From IMG/VR virus record IMGVR_UViG_3300046522_000252, positions 1 through 64,000 of that record: DNA of 64,000 bases, one strand, 5' to 3'. The notes beneath the pieces were generated by a model that saw only the letters and a list, made by a program, of their open reading frames with translations, made no database searches and was not told the DNA's origin. The position numbers and the translations under genes are program-made. Source of the DNA: a virus. Positions 22,060-28,389 of the stretch are shown in pieces (within the stretch, counting starts at the first letter, position 1; each line of letters opens with the position of its first letter).

Positions 22060-22281
22060 ATGACTGGCTTTGTGTTCGCCATGGCGCCGTGCCTCGGCTG
22101 CAACCGGATTTTCAGTTTTAACCCGGCGTTGGTTCCTTCGCTGATGTTCGACGGGGAACGCAAGCCGCTATGCGAGAAGTGTTTCGCATACCTCAACCGG
22201 AGGCGCACAGCGCTTCACTTGCCGGTGTTTGTCGCCCCACCAGGCGCCTATCAGCCGATGCCAGAGGAGGAATTGCCGTGA
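22060..22281 (+). CDS. Conserved small zinc-ribbon phage protein
   Basis: A 73-residue protein of a common phage family: N-terminal FAMAPCLGCNRIFSFNP, then VPSL, KPLCEKCF and a hydrophobic end. Two CxxC pairs bind one zinc ion. It is often found near replication or recombination genes; role unknown. Strong TAGGAGG site. Confidence 0.85.
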   Translation: MTGFVFAMAPCLGCNRIFSFNPALVPSLMFDGERKPLCEKCFAYLNRRRTALHLPVFVAPPGAYQPMPEEELP

Positions 22282-22790
22282 GACAGGAAACGGTGCTTGG
22301 CGTGAAGCTCGCTGAAAAAGGCTTTGTGCCGCGCAACATCAAATTCCAGATCGCGATTGCGCGATATCAGAATAGCGGCGGCGAGTACGGCGTGGCGCTT
22401 GCCATGTTGAACGCCGCTTTTGGACGGGGAAGCGAAGGCCAGAAGCCGGAAGCTGCCGACAAGGCCGGGAACCGTGAGCCCGACGCTGCGGCACGCAAGA
22501 TGCCAGGCCATGCCAGGCGCGGTGCCGCCGCAATCGGCGCGGTGCAGGGCACGATGCAAAAATCCTTGTTCGACTCCACGATCTTGCCCGATGGCCGCAC
22601 GTTGCGCGAGGTCAAATGGAGCGAATGCCCGCGCCTTTCGCGTCGCTATCGCTACCTCTCCCGCGTGCTGATGGCGATCCACAACGTCGGCATTCCCGCC
22701 GATCCCAACGACACAATCGACAACCTCGTCAATGAGGACGGGTTGAAGGAAATCATCTCAGCGGTGGAGCGGTTCAATGACATTCACTGA
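22278..22790 (+). CDS. Hypothetical protein, GTG start
   Basis: A 170-residue protein beginning with GTG at 22278, which overlaps the previous stop (GTGA) and follows GAGGAGG. The first 50 residues are helical, the middle is rich in Ala, Arg and Gly (possible DNA-binding linker) and the last 70 include LDSTILPDGRTL-like and YRYLSRVLMAIHNVG segments. No family recognised. Confidence 0.6.
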   Translation: MRQETVLGVKLAEKGFVPRNIKFQIAIARYQNSGGEYGVALAMLNAAFGRGSEGQKPEAADKAGNREPDAAARKMPGHARRGAAAIGAVQGTMQKSLFDSTILPDGRTLREVKWSECPRLSRRYRYLSRVLMAIHNVGIPADPNDTIDNLVNEDGLKEIISAVERFNDIH

Positions 22791-24375
22791 TCGAAAGAAT
22801 GATGGCGAAACGGGCCACGACATCAACGCCGATAAGTCCAGTCTGGAATTGCCCGCCTCGCCATCGCCGAAAGACGGGAAGGGTCCGCTTGCTTTTGCCG
22901 ACAAGGCCAATGGAGAAATGCCCAACCCGTCCCCCAATGGCGAAACGGTCCATCGAGTGAATGCCGCCGAAACGGCTGCAATCGGCTTGACTGTTTCGCC
23001 GCCGAAAGACGGAAAAGGTCGCCCCGCGCTTGCCGATAAGGCCAAGGTTTCGGTGCCTGATCCGTCCCCCAAAGATGACGCGGCGGGCCACCCCGACTCT
23101 GCCGCTGAGGCCGTTGCAAGTGTGCCCGCCGCGTCATCGCCGAAAGATGAGTTGGGCCATTCAGAGCGTGCCGAAGAGGCCGCAGACCCGATGCCCGACC
23201 CATCGCCGAATGATGGCGCGGCTGGCCGGAAAGCAAATGCAACATCCAGTGAAATGTTGCCCGCCGCGTCATCAGCTATGATCGACCATCTGGCCGAGCT
23301 TCAGGTCCGCCGAAAATTCTATATCGGCGTCGTCAATCGGCAGACGAATGCGGCCAAAGCCCTTGTCCGCCGCGCGCTGGGCTGGCGCTATGATGCCGAG
23401 GACGCCGGGCGGGAAAAGCTGAACGCCCGCGCCGCGCGGATCGTGGCCGCTGCTTTGGCCGGGAAAGAGCAAAAGGCCGAGGATGCGGCAGCATTCGGCG
23501 CGCTGGCGTTCGATCTGGCGACCATCGCGGCGGCCATCGAGCCTTGCACGACCGCCCGGCATGAAATCGAACTGGAAATGAAGCGCACCGCCCGCAAGCT
23601 GCCGGTGTGGTTCGCGTGGGCGAAGGACGTTAAAGGGCTAGGGGAACTTGGCCTCGCGGCCATCATCGCCGAGGCTGGCGATCTTTCCGGCTACCCCAAG
23701 AAGGGCCACCTCTGGAAACGCCTCGGCCTCGCACCGCTCGACGGCAAAGCCTTTTCGACGTGGCGGATGAAAGGTGGGCTGACCGCCGAACAATGGACAG
23801 ACGCCGGTTATTCGCCGCGCCGCCGGGCTGAAATCTATGCGGTGATTTCGGAACCGCTATTCCGCGCGCAATCGGTCGCCAGTGGATCATACCGCGCGAT
23901 CTATGATCGCCGCCGGGAGCATACCGCCGAGACGCACCCGGACTGGACCAAAGCGCACAGCCACATGGACGGGCTGCGGATCATGACGAAATATTTAATT
24001 CGCGACCTTTGGGCCGCGTGGCGGGCCTTGCATGCCGTGCCTATTCAGGCCGCTTCACTCGTGCCCGCCAACCTATCCGAGAATCGCCGGGAGGCCAAAA
24101 TCTGTCACCCTGAAAGGGTCGGAGGACGCGTGCCGACCGGCGAACCGAACGAGCGGGAGGCCGGGCAGGTTCCGCCTGAAAAGGCCGGAGTTTTTGTGCC
24201 GACCGCTCACCCCAACCGCCGCCGGGAGGCTAACGGACGGATATCTGAAACGGCCGAAAAAAAATTGCCGACCGGCGGCGGCGCGGAGGCTATCCCAGTC
24301 ATGCCCGAAAAAGGCCAAAAGACGGGTGCCTCCGCGCCATCATCCGCCACCCAAGATCAAAGAGGTGAACTATGA
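22777..24375 (+). CDS. Repeat-flanked protein with IS110 transposase-like C-terminal domain
   Basis: A 532-residue protein. Residues about 20-165 are seven or so degenerate 22-24-residue repeats of the type (S/P)PKDG.G..ADKA...PxP. Residues 166-280 look like a coiled coil. Residues about 284-410 (VKGLGELGLAAIIAEAGDL, then LWKRLGLAPLDGKA and a following helical part) resemble the C-terminal Transposase_20 domain of IS110 recombinases. The N-terminal DEDD RuvC-like domain of IS110 is not seen. After residue 428 four more repeats occur (VPTxxPN.REA). It lies beside the Bet/RecT gene, so a recombination or DNA-structure role is likely; mobile activity is doubtful. Confidence 0.6.
   Translation: MTFTDRKNDGETGHDINADKSSLELPASPSPKDGKGPLAFADKANGEMPNPSPNGETVHRVNAAETAAIGLTVSPPKDGKGRPALADKAKVSVPDPSPKDDAAGHPDSAAEAVASVPAASSPKDELGHSERAEEAADPMPDPSPNDGAAGRKANATSSEMLPAASSAMIDHLAELQVRRKFYIGVVNRQTNAAKALVRRALGWRYDAEDAGREKLNARAARIVAAALAGKEQKAEDAAAFGALAFDLATIAAAIEPCTTARHEIELEMKRTARKLPVWFAWAKDVKGLGELGLAAIIAEAGDLSGYPKKGHLWKRLGLAPLDGKAFSTWRMKGGLTAEQWTDAGYSPRRRAEIYAVISEPLFRAQSVASGSYRAIYDRRREHTAETHPDWTKAHSHMDGLRIMTKYLIRDLWAAWRALHAVPIQAASLVPANLSENRREAKICHPERVGGRVPTGEPNEREAGQVPPEKAGVFVPTAHPNRRREANGRISETAEKKLPTGGGAEAIPVMPEKGQKTGASAPSSATQDQRGEL
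22850..23275 (+). repeat. Degenerate 66-72-base tandem repeats
   Basis: Within the gene at 22777, blocks such as CCGAAAGACGG (22867, 23004) and CCCGCCGCGTCATC (about 23128, 23260) recur at multiples of about 70 bases. They encode the N-terminal Pro/Asp/Lys-rich repeats. The pattern is ancient and drifted. Confidence 0.65.
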
Positions 24376-25376
24376 CCATCGTCGACCCTTGGGAAAACTG
24401 GCGGGCCGCATTGGAAAACCCGCGCAAGATTGGCAGCGGGAAACTCGTTGTTCATCCGGGCGGCACGCCGTGGACTGGATTTTTCCGGGTCCGCAAAAAG
24501 GATGGCGACTGGGAACCCGTGCAGTTCTGGCAGGACGATCTAGGCTTGTGGTACGCGACGCGCTCCGGCAAGCCGGTCGATCCTGACCGCATCCCTGATC
24601 TGTTTCTATGGGCGGTGCGCCAGCCGATCAGCGAATTGGCCTTCGACCGCGCCACGGCGGGCAACGGTTGGGCCGACGAACCGGAGCGGACGCCGGGCAT
24701 CGGCGACAATTCCGGCGAGGCCGACCCCTTCGACGCTCTGAATATTGAGTGGCTGGGCGAGAAGGAGCTGGTCGAAGGCTTCCTCAAAATCCCGATCACC
24801 TCGAAGGACGAAGCTGACCGCGCAGCCATTTGGGCGACGCGCCTCAACGGCATTGCCAAGAGGGCGGACAAGCTCCACGGCGACGAAAAGGCGCCGGTCC
24901 TCGTCGCAGGGCGGCGCGTCGACTCCAAGTGGCGGGAGCTGCGCGAGCAGCCGAGCGGAATGGCAATCCTTCTGAAACGGCATCAGGACAAATGGTTGCG
25001 GGAGCAAGAGAGGCTGGAGCGTGAGCGCGTTGCCGCCGCCGCCGTGGAGGCTGAGCGCTTGCGGATCGAAGCCGAGGAGGCCGCCGCCAAGGCGCGGACG
25101 CCGGACGACGTGGCGGAGGCTGGCGCCAAGGTTGCCGCCGCCCAGGAAGCCGAGCGCGAAGCAACATATCAGCGCCCGCAAGCCGGGCGAACCGGCGCCA
25201 AGACATCGCTCCGCACGTTCCGAACCGGGAAGATTGTCGACTTCGATACTTTCCTGATGGCGGCCAAAGATCATGACGAGATCAGGGAGGCGGCACAGAC
25301 CACCGCCAACCGCCTCGCGCGGGCCAAGGTCACGCTGGCGGGGATGGAAATCGTCGAGGAACAACGGACGGTTTGA
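24372..25376 (+). CDS. Phage protein upstream of Bet/RecT
   Basis: A 334-residue protein. The N-terminal 90 residues have a compact alpha/beta look (WENWRAALENPRKIGSGKL). IGDNSGEADPFDA is a motif common in alphaproteobacterial phage recombination operons. Residues 190-270 are a strong coiled coil (REQERLERERVAAAAVEAERL). It overlaps the IS110-like gene by four bases and precedes the annealing protein gene. Similar genes may serve as accessory or exonuclease partners, but no nuclease motif is visible. Confidence 0.6.
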   Translation: MTIVDPWENWRAALENPRKIGSGKLVVHPGGTPWTGFFRVRKKDGDWEPVQFWQDDLGLWYATRSGKPVDPDRIPDLFLWAVRQPISELAFDRATAGNGWADEPERTPGIGDNSGEADPFDALNIEWLGEKELVEGFLKIPITSKDEADRAAIWATRLNGIAKRADKLHGDEKAPVLVAGRRVDSKWRELREQPSGMAILLKRHQDKWLREQERLERERVAAAAVEAERLRIEAEEAAAKARTPDDVAEAGAKVAAAQEAEREATYQRPQAGRTGAKTSLRTFRTGKIVDFDTFLMAAKDHDEIREAAQTTANRLARAKVTLAGMEIVEEQRTV

Positions 25377-26930: not shown

Positions 26931-27571
26931 GTAACCGCCCTCTCAACAACATGACCGCGCGCATTGATCGCCTTCCGCGAGATGCGCGCGGCTACCCGGT
27001 TCCCAAGTTTGTTCACTGGAAAGACGGTGTGCCGGATTTCCGCATTATCGATCCGTACCACATGGACAAGTGCATCAAGCGCGATGCCTGCTGGATTTGC
27101 GGCGATACGATGGGAACGCACAAGGCTTTCGTCATCGGTCCGATGTGCTGCATTAACCGGATATCGGCGGAGCCGCCAAGCCACCGCGACTGCGCAATCT
27201 TCGCGGCGACGAACTGCCCTTTCCTGACGACGCCAGCGGCCAAGCGCAACGAACGCGACTTGCCGGACACCAGGTTTGTTGCCGGGAAGATGATCGAACG
27301 AAACCCCGGCGTCACGGCGCTCTGGATGACGCGCTCGTATCAGCTCATGCACGTCAAGCGCGGTGTCCTTTTTATCATCGGCGACCCGGACTCGGTTGAT
27401 TTCTATGCACGGGGTAGGACGGCCACGCGCGCTGAGATCGAAACGTCGGTGACATCCGGCTATCCGCTCCTGATGGAAGAGGCAAAGCGCGAAGGCCGGG
27501 ATGCAATCGACGAACTGGCGCGGTTGCGGCGGCGCTTTGACAATCTTCTCGATGAGGCGGTGCCATCATGA
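26927..27571 (+). CDS. Conserved phage zinc protein, 214 residues
   Basis: A protein beginning with RIDRLPRDARGYPVPKFVHW, then CWICGDTMGTHKAFVIGPMCC and EPPSHRDCAIFAATNCPFL. The cysteines probably bind one or two zinc ions. The family is common in phages near recombination and replication genes, with no known function. It ends in a coupled overlap with the next gene. Confidence 0.75.
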   Translation: MSNRPLNNMTARIDRLPRDARGYPVPKFVHWKDGVPDFRIIDPYHMDKCIKRDACWICGDTMGTHKAFVIGPMCCINRISAEPPSHRDCAIFAATNCPFLTTPAAKRNERDLPDTRFVAGKMIERNPGVTALWMTRSYQLMHVKRGVLFIIGDPDSVDFYARGRTATRAEIETSVTSGYPLLMEEAKREGRDAIDELARLRRRFDNLLDEAVPS

Positions 27572-28389
27572 AGCATGAACTCCCTCCATTCCATATGACC
27601 GTTGGCACGGGCAAGCTCACGCCCGCCGATCCCTACACGGCGGAACGGCTGGACAGCTACCGCAATGGAACCGTCATGCTGTTTCAGCCGGTGGTCGACT
27701 CGCAAAGTTGGAAGCGCAAAAAATACTGGGCGATCTTGAACCGCGTCGTCGCCGATTGCCGAACCCCGTGGAAAAATTCGGCGGAGGCCAGCCAAGCGCT
27801 GAAACTCGCCCTCGGCATCGTCGACCAGGGCCTTACGATCAGCGGCGCCGTGGTGCGTTATCCGAAAAGCCTCAACGATCTCCAGGAACCGGATTTCGAG
27901 ACGTTCTTCGAAGGCGCGATGTTACTGCTTTACCGCGTGACCGGCGTCGATCCCGAAACGCTCTGGAAAGAATCAGCCGGATCAGGCAAGGATCAAAAAT
28001 CGTCGACCTCTTCCCCACGCTCAGAGGTCGACGAAGGCAGCGGTGACGAACTCCCCCGTACTGTCGCCGCTGCCGCCCCCAATGAGACGGTGCCCGTCGC
28101 GTCAGCCGCTCAGCAGATTGCCGATAGGCCCGGCGGGTCCAATCCTCCGCCCGGACACCTCAACGACCTGAAAGCCGAGGCGATCACCAAAATCCTGCAA
28201 TATGCGACCGACCCGAACGTGTCGGCGGAGGCGTTGCTCGACAATCTTCTCGGCGTGCAAACCGGTTGGCTTGTCCACATGCCGAATAATTCGGCCTTCA
28301 TCAAAACATGCTGCGAGACCGCCGCGAAGGTGATCCGGGGCGAGATCACACCCGACGCGGCGAGGAAATACCTGCTTTCGCTCAGTTAA
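27568..28389 (+). CDS. DUF1367-like phage protein with added C-terminal domain
   Basis: A 273-residue protein. Residues 1-130 (MLFQPVVDSQSWKRKKYWAI, then WKNSAEASQALKLALG, FFEGAMLLLYRVTGVDPETLW) look like DUF1367, a family in replication and recombination regions. A Ser/Pro/Glu-rich linker follows, and then a helical domain from about residue 200 to the end (ITKILQYATDPNVSAEALLDN). Role unknown. Confidence 0.65.
   Translation: MKHELPPFHMTVGTGKLTPADPYTAERLDSYRNGTVMLFQPVVDSQSWKRKKYWAILNRVVADCRTPWKNSAEASQALKLALGIVDQGLTISGAVVRYPKSLNDLQEPDFETFFEGAMLLLYRVTGVDPETLWKESAGSGKDQKSSTSSPRSEVDEGSGDELPRTVAAAAPNETVPVASAAQQIADRPGGSNPPPGHLNDLKAEAITKILQYATDPNVSAEALLDNLLGVQTGWLVHMPNNSAFIKTCCETAAKVIRGEITPDAARKYLLSLS

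Follow-up and report, generated by a model that had tools for sequence, protein, structure and literature searches.

Does the long open reading frame (ORF) at positions 22777–24375 of the virus record IMGVR_UViG_3300046522_000252 encode a recombinase set between protein repeats, or are the repeats something other than protein? The stretch analysed here, referred to as the window, comprises the first 64,000 nucleotides (nt) of this 66,983-base record. TIGR-Tas systems bind DNA under RNA guidance and resemble CRISPR in function alone. As judged from sequence comparison, the locus is very probably a phage TIGR-Tas system of the TasA type, in which stem-loop guide units are overprinted on coding sequence. 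TIGR-Tas systems have been described by Faure et al. 2025 (PMC12045711).

The Tas protein and its relation to IS110

The ORF was confirmed in the window and encodes a protein of 532 amino acids, including both array-encoded ends.

22777–24375, + strand: tas ORF including both translated arrays; its ATG overlaps the stop codon of the upstream gene, here called upX, by 14 nt, and its TGA overlaps the ATG of the next gene (ATGA)
23278–24042, + strand: predicted Tas core, a Nop-type RNA-binding domain plus coiled coil without nuclease (TasA type), located by NF052498, phmmer, the A2 profile and an AlphaFold model

The core corresponds to residues 168–420, and the N-terminal extension of the protein is encoded by an array. 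The best library match of the window protein was NCBIfam NF052498 (TIGR_Tas_endo, TIGR-Tas RNA-guided endonuclease), with 84.9 bits (E 7e-24) against a curated cut-off of 100 bits, which is a library threshold and not a defining trait of the published family. Three aligned relatives exceed this cut-off (108.6–128.8 bits), so the shortfall of the window protein would reflect distance rather than a missing part. The core taken singly matched just one PDB sequence, TasR (9mty; phmmer, E 1e-5), and the A2 profile, built from an alignment of 13 Tas sequences, retrieved TasR (7e-9) and TasH (1e-3) with no other PDB match below E 0.1. The AlphaFold model of the core (pLDDT 86) agrees best with TasH (Z 15.7) and TasR (Z 15.4), followed by IS110-type recombinases (Z 11.9–12.9; ISCro4 12.9, IS621 about 12) and by Nop5 and Prp31 (Z about 7.5). 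Scans of the window protein against Pfam, PHROG and NCBIfam revealed no RuvC or HNH domain, which by the nomenclature of Faure et al. 2025 (PMC12045711) makes it a protein of TasA type. On this sequence and model evidence, residues 168–420 are identified as a nuclease-free Nop-domain Tas protein of the TasA type, kin of TasR and TasH.

A sequence-only reading of this DNA had instead proposed a domesticated IS110-family recombinase or a branched-DNA-binding protein of a recombination operon, an explanation that now appears very improbable. It had noted a core resembling the C-terminal Transposase_20 part of IS110 without an N-terminal DEDD domain, and had suggested profile searches with Transposase_20 and DEDD_Tnp_IS110 and a structure prediction of the core. 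The resemblance exists below threshold: Transposase_20 scored 17.7 bits in the Pfam scan against a curated 21.3, and 20.2 bits in a six-frame search, while transpos_IS110 reached 27.4 bits against a cut-off of 140. Together with the IS621 fold match and the presence of Bet and exonuclease genes downstream, these matches speak for an IS110 origin, and kinship to the RNA-binding part of IS110 was indeed borne out. Against a recombinase stand the DEDD family, which the Pfam scan does not list at E up to 1, the better agreement with TasR and TasH in both sequence and fold (Z 15–16 against about 12 for IS621), the presence of a multi-unit array in place of a single bridge RNA, and the lack of conservation of the recombination neighbours among related loci. 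The protein is accordingly better described as Tas than as a transposase derivative.

Stem-loop units and their spacers

The two flanking tandem arrays of one repeat type reported earlier are real, with regular box C spacing on both sides of the core (69, 66, 69, 69, 69 and 69 nt upstream; 69, 66, 69 and 60 nt downstream). They resolve into 12 predicted TIGR stem-loop units, seven upstream and five downstream of the Tas core. Each unit consists of a palindromic arm, a CCA box C, a 9-nt spacer A, TG, a short hairpin loop, CCA or CCG, a 9-nt spacer B, a TG box D and the second arm, where box frequencies are biased by a unit scorer that favours CCA and demands TG at the last box. The motif [VLM]PxxxP(K/N) of the protein repeats arises when box D and the stem are translated (nTG CCn ...). 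The structured unit scan found these 12 units within 1.6 kb, compared with about 1–3 hits of comparable score per strand when the genome was dinucleotide-shuffled 12 times. Relatives of tas were found in IMG/VR and GTDB genomes; they are small in number, and some are closely related to one another. A covariance model (R2) trained on the window's own units, with hits counted at E up to 0.1, gave 135 plus-strand hits in 29 of 38 sources (28 besides the window), all around tas, and no unit elsewhere in the 64-kb window; its two minus-strand hits both fell on palindromic plus-strand units. The units of the window, all on the + strand, are as follows:

Unit 1, 22800–22866, +: spacers CGACATCAA / GTCTGGAAT
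Unit 2, 22870–22935, +: spacers GCTTGCTTT / ATGGAGAAA
Unit 3, 22936–23004, +: spacers TCGAGTGAA / CAATCGGCT; loop of 12 nt
Unit 4, 23005–23070, +: spacers CCCCGCGCT / AGGTTTCGG
Unit 5, 23072–23140, +: spacers CCCCGACTC / TTGCAAGTG; perfect stem of 15 base pairs
Unit 6, 23143–23208, +: spacers TTCAGAGCG / CAGACCCGA
Unit 7, 23210–23275, +: spacers GAAAGCAAA / GTGAAATGT; loop of 6 nt
Unit 8, 24011–24080, +: spacers TGCATGCCG / CTTCACTCG; lies partly on the 3' end of the conserved Tas core; folds least well among the 12 (z -0.8)
Unit 9, 24082–24147, +: spacers AAATCTGTC / GAGGACGCG; D' box AC; in the model alignment, no separate covariance hit, 1-base overlap with a neighbouring hit
Unit 10, 24149–24212, +: spacers GGCAGGTTC / GAGTTTTTG
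Unit 11, 24214–24283, +: spacers ACGGACGGA / AAAAAAAAT; in the model alignment, no separate covariance hit, overlaps a neighbouring hit
Unit 12, 24277–24342, +: spacers TCCCAGTCA / AAAGACGGG

Across the 12 units, 82.5% of stem cells are paired, against 27–44% with a slid partner, a control that leans towards the true stem because the stem was defined from these same sequences. Doubly changed stem cells number 27, compared with 9 in shuffles (0/500), and 11 of the units fold with z of -2.2 or lower relative to shuffles, unit 8 being the exception. The repeats of the window are identified on these grounds as a putative TIGR guide array of dual-spacer box C/D units whose palindromic arms covary. 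The earlier suggestion of a possible RNA guide was apt, and its companion statement that nothing shows a guide is superseded, as the repeats themselves would be the guide array. Two further details were seen in the units. Arm pairing dips at positions 3–5 in many of them (e.g., 24149–24212), and some have, close to the box C–D pair, an internal loop (GA/GA or AA/GA) reminiscent of the tandem G.A pairs of k-turns.

The turnover of the spacers could be followed in L003–L006, four near-identical prophages with no insertions or deletions in the compared region. Invariant columns make up 88–90% of the flanking coding sequence and 59–63% of the array regions, where 10-nt spacer windows with almost no common base lie between invariant boxes and arms. 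In the flanking coding sequence, 0.77–0.80 of third codon positions are invariant versus 0.89–0.97 of first and second positions; in the array arms and boxes the third positions are no freer than the first and second, and in the spacers about 0.2–0.35 of columns are invariant at all codon positions. This contrast between flanks and arrays indicates that selection along a single reading frame alternates between a protein type and an RNA type. The alignment shows spacers that vary freely within a gene that is otherwise conserved. In addition, L004 and L006, whose IMG/VR records carry a common genome number prefix (2894228515), were observed to have Tas cassettes that are related yet differ completely in their spacers, and are possibly two prophages of one host.

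These data bear on the simplest alternative, namely that the repeats are purely protein repeats, disordered proline-rich linkers whose palindromes arose by chance. The repeats do appear to be translated, and they begin at a conserved start context. Such linkers are nevertheless hard to reconcile with the compensatory changes in the arms, with hypervariable 10-nt windows that run across all codon positions, with wobble positions that are constrained within arms and boxes, or with the same boxes beside tas in 28 relatives, and the explanation is scarcely credible.

Reading frame, upX and related loci

The tas ORF runs through the units in relatives as well as in the window. Phase statistics were compiled for 88 units from 24 loci, all with a register score of at least 36. 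Of the 57 upstream-side units, 2 have stop codons in the coding phase, compared with 16 and 29 for the two remaining phases (Fisher 7e-8); of the 31 downstream-side units, 3 do, compared with 7 and 16 (0.004). Unit spacings are multiples of 3 in 34 of 39 cases (p 5e-12) despite varying between 60 and 141 nt, and all of these p-values are too small insofar as units in one array share ancestry and the counts are not fully independent. When full spacer codons only are considered, stops are avoided on the upstream side (1/235 versus 26/563, p 9e-4). Box C falls at codon position 3 within the tas ORF upstream (23 of 26 units) and at position 2 downstream (23 of 24). The counts show that the predicted TIGR units keep to a single frame within tas and, among the relatives, also within a second gene, upX.

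22278–22790, + strand: upX, a conserved but unnamed gene of two domains that precedes tas, defined by protein alignment A3

In relatives, upX carries 1–3 TIGR units in frame within its interdomain linker, and beyond the array the protein alignment picks up again without a change of frame, both flanks being conserved; the window copy holds one degenerate unit only, at about 22424–22490. On alignment evidence, upX makes the strongest case for true coding of the arrays. The upX family has no Pfam or PHROG match except a sub-threshold Clp_N row for L049, and its low-confidence predicted model gave no fold match. A C-terminal motif, SLFDxTxLPDGRxLREVxWxECP, is conserved in L003–L006 (4181–4846) and corresponds to no known family; more distant loci have a VLDxxxVRDGRxIGDVxW-like version of it. 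The ATG of tas lies inside the end of upX in a conserved GGAG...CAATGA context, the GGAG being Shine-Dalgarno-like and the overlap 14 nt, and the ATGA overlap at the tas stop occurs in 7 of 10 loci, the window included.

It could be argued that the array is a functional TIGR-Tas array in which the ORF is incidental, with Tas translated from an internal ATG at 23278 and the array forming an untranslated leader and trailer that are open by chance in GC-rich DNA. An ATG is present at this position, and in the distant Rhizobium phage RHph_X2_25 array-like hairpins lie mostly outside annotated coding sequence. Such an arrangement does not account for stop avoidance confined to one phase, for spacings in multiples of 3, for the conserved in-frame protein on both sides of the array in upX, or for the conserved GGAG and start context at 22777 and the ATGA coupling at the tas stop, and it is judged quite unlikely. 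The TIGR-Tas reading with translated arrays is retained, and the array bases appear to serve twice, as code for protein and as hypervariable guides.

The Tas protein of RHph_X2_25 (L077) is 33% identical to the window protein over 60% of the query, and its hairpins lie in stretches with stops in all frames. In-frame placement therefore looks like a derived state, since this distant phage keeps its hairpins largely intergenic; the basis for this polarity is a comparison without a tree, and R2 matched nothing in three phage records that encode distant Tas proteins, leaving the RHph_X2_25 hairpins unmatched. By eye these hairpins (L077 3110–3520 and 4577–4880) have loops of about 28–31 nt and are of different make. 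They surround the Tas-like gene, which is annotated as a hypothetical protein (QWY83253.1). No Tas relative was found in a plasmid collection, and among 385 alphaproteobacterial genomes only the centre genome matched, which suggests that the system is rare.

One further gene was placed directly downstream of tas.

24372–25376, + strand: exonuclease-like gene (phrog_10477), 4-nt ATGA overlap with the tas stop

This gene directly precedes Bet/RecT, and a NinB/Orf-like gene is found at 27568–28389. The recombination genes noted earlier are thus present, but they are not the usual context of the relatives: an exonuclease plus Bet follows tas only in the window and in L012, an Aminobacter locus, while other downstream neighbours include an integrase (L009; near in L007), a primase (L008), a head-tail adaptor (L013) and a gene of unknown function (L004). 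As read from these loci, what is conserved is a cassette of upX, tas and the arrays rather than a recombination operon, and since the gene downstream of tas differs among relatives, a recombination function was discarded.

Candidate targets, proposed mechanism and known systems

The published cut geometry, with 8-nt 3' overhangs (PMC12045711), leads by our own derivation to a target strand of the form 5'-A-rc(B)-3', where rc is the reverse complement. The spacers of unit 1 match window positions 22334–22351, inside upX, at 16 of 18 positions with a contiguous run of 15 nt in this geometry. Self-targeting was rejected, as 61 units gave no more hits in the predicted geometry than in three control geometries. 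Gap-0 hits over own and related contigs (9/11 in the predicted geometry versus 5/14, 3/9 and 4/14 in the controls) are suggestive of targeting at most.

Several results weigh against the identification of the locus as a TIGR-Tas system with in-frame guides. Besides the window protein's NF052498 score, which stays under the curated cut-off, and the shared ancestry behind the phase counts, stop avoidance in full spacer codons is not significant on the downstream side (p 0.2), and an unfiltered tally that includes units of register score below 36 has more exceptions and is less clean. Targets in own and related contigs occur at about control level, and five 18-mer target sequences, searched as exact matches, are absent from IMG/VR.

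By analogy with work on TasR, TasH and TasA, a polycistronic upX-tas transcript would fold into unit hairpins, Tas dimers would bind the CCA/UG boxes, and a host RNase would release dual-spacer guides. In the resulting ribonucleoprotein, spacers A and B may pair with opposite DNA strands, so that target DNA would be bent and not cut, as published work implies; most likely, competing mobile elements or host genes would thereby be kept from being transcribed, replicated or maintained. Specific to this variant, the layout suggests that guide maturation would destroy the Tas message and tie guide supply to Tas supply; since the guides lie within that message, their maturation could act as built-in negative feedback on Tas. 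The full proposal, in which one transcript serves as message and guide precursor, spacers are replaced in frame in two genes, feedback operates and upX is a dedicated partner, perhaps in spacer turnover or array regulation, is tentative and on balance doubtful. If true, upX would be a dedicated partner protein of a kind that published TIGR systems are said to lack, and its conservation provides a handle on the involvement of a second protein. Spacer replacement should be directly studyable in the related prophages L003–L006 with their swapped spacers. Gene finders would call an in-frame array a repeat protein, so such systems may be missed.

Among known systems, the closest is the TIGR-TasA with a stem-loop array from a Peromyscus gut contig (PMC12045711), which shares a phage-borne, nuclease-free Nop-domain Tas and units with two spacers of about 9 nt, box C and box D bounds and palindromic sequence replacing edge repeats; it differs in that most units here sit within the reading frame of tas and, in relatives, also within that of a second gene. 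TIGR-TasR and TasH (PDB 9mty, 9w03) share the core fold, and the CCA and UG box motifs are those of TasR arrays, but these proteins carry an N-terminal RuvC or HNH nuclease that the window Tas lacks, and their described arrays are of the dual-repeat kind. IS110/IS621 with its bridge RNA has the RNA-binding part of the fold in common with Tas, whereas the window protein lacks the DEDD domain and is accompanied by a multi-unit array rather than one bridge RNA. None of the open-licence papers searched, the supplement of Faure et al. aside, describes hypervariable guides and protein encoded in a single shared frame. The nearest precedent for guides overlapping coding sequence is that of the archaeal box C/D small RNAs, 25% of whose genes overlap a 3' ORF end and 7% a 5' one (PMC7994747). 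Those RNAs are single, lie at gene edges and guide RNA methylation, in contrast to the tandem in-frame arrays described here, which also occupy the middle linker of a gene and carry hypervariable spacers.
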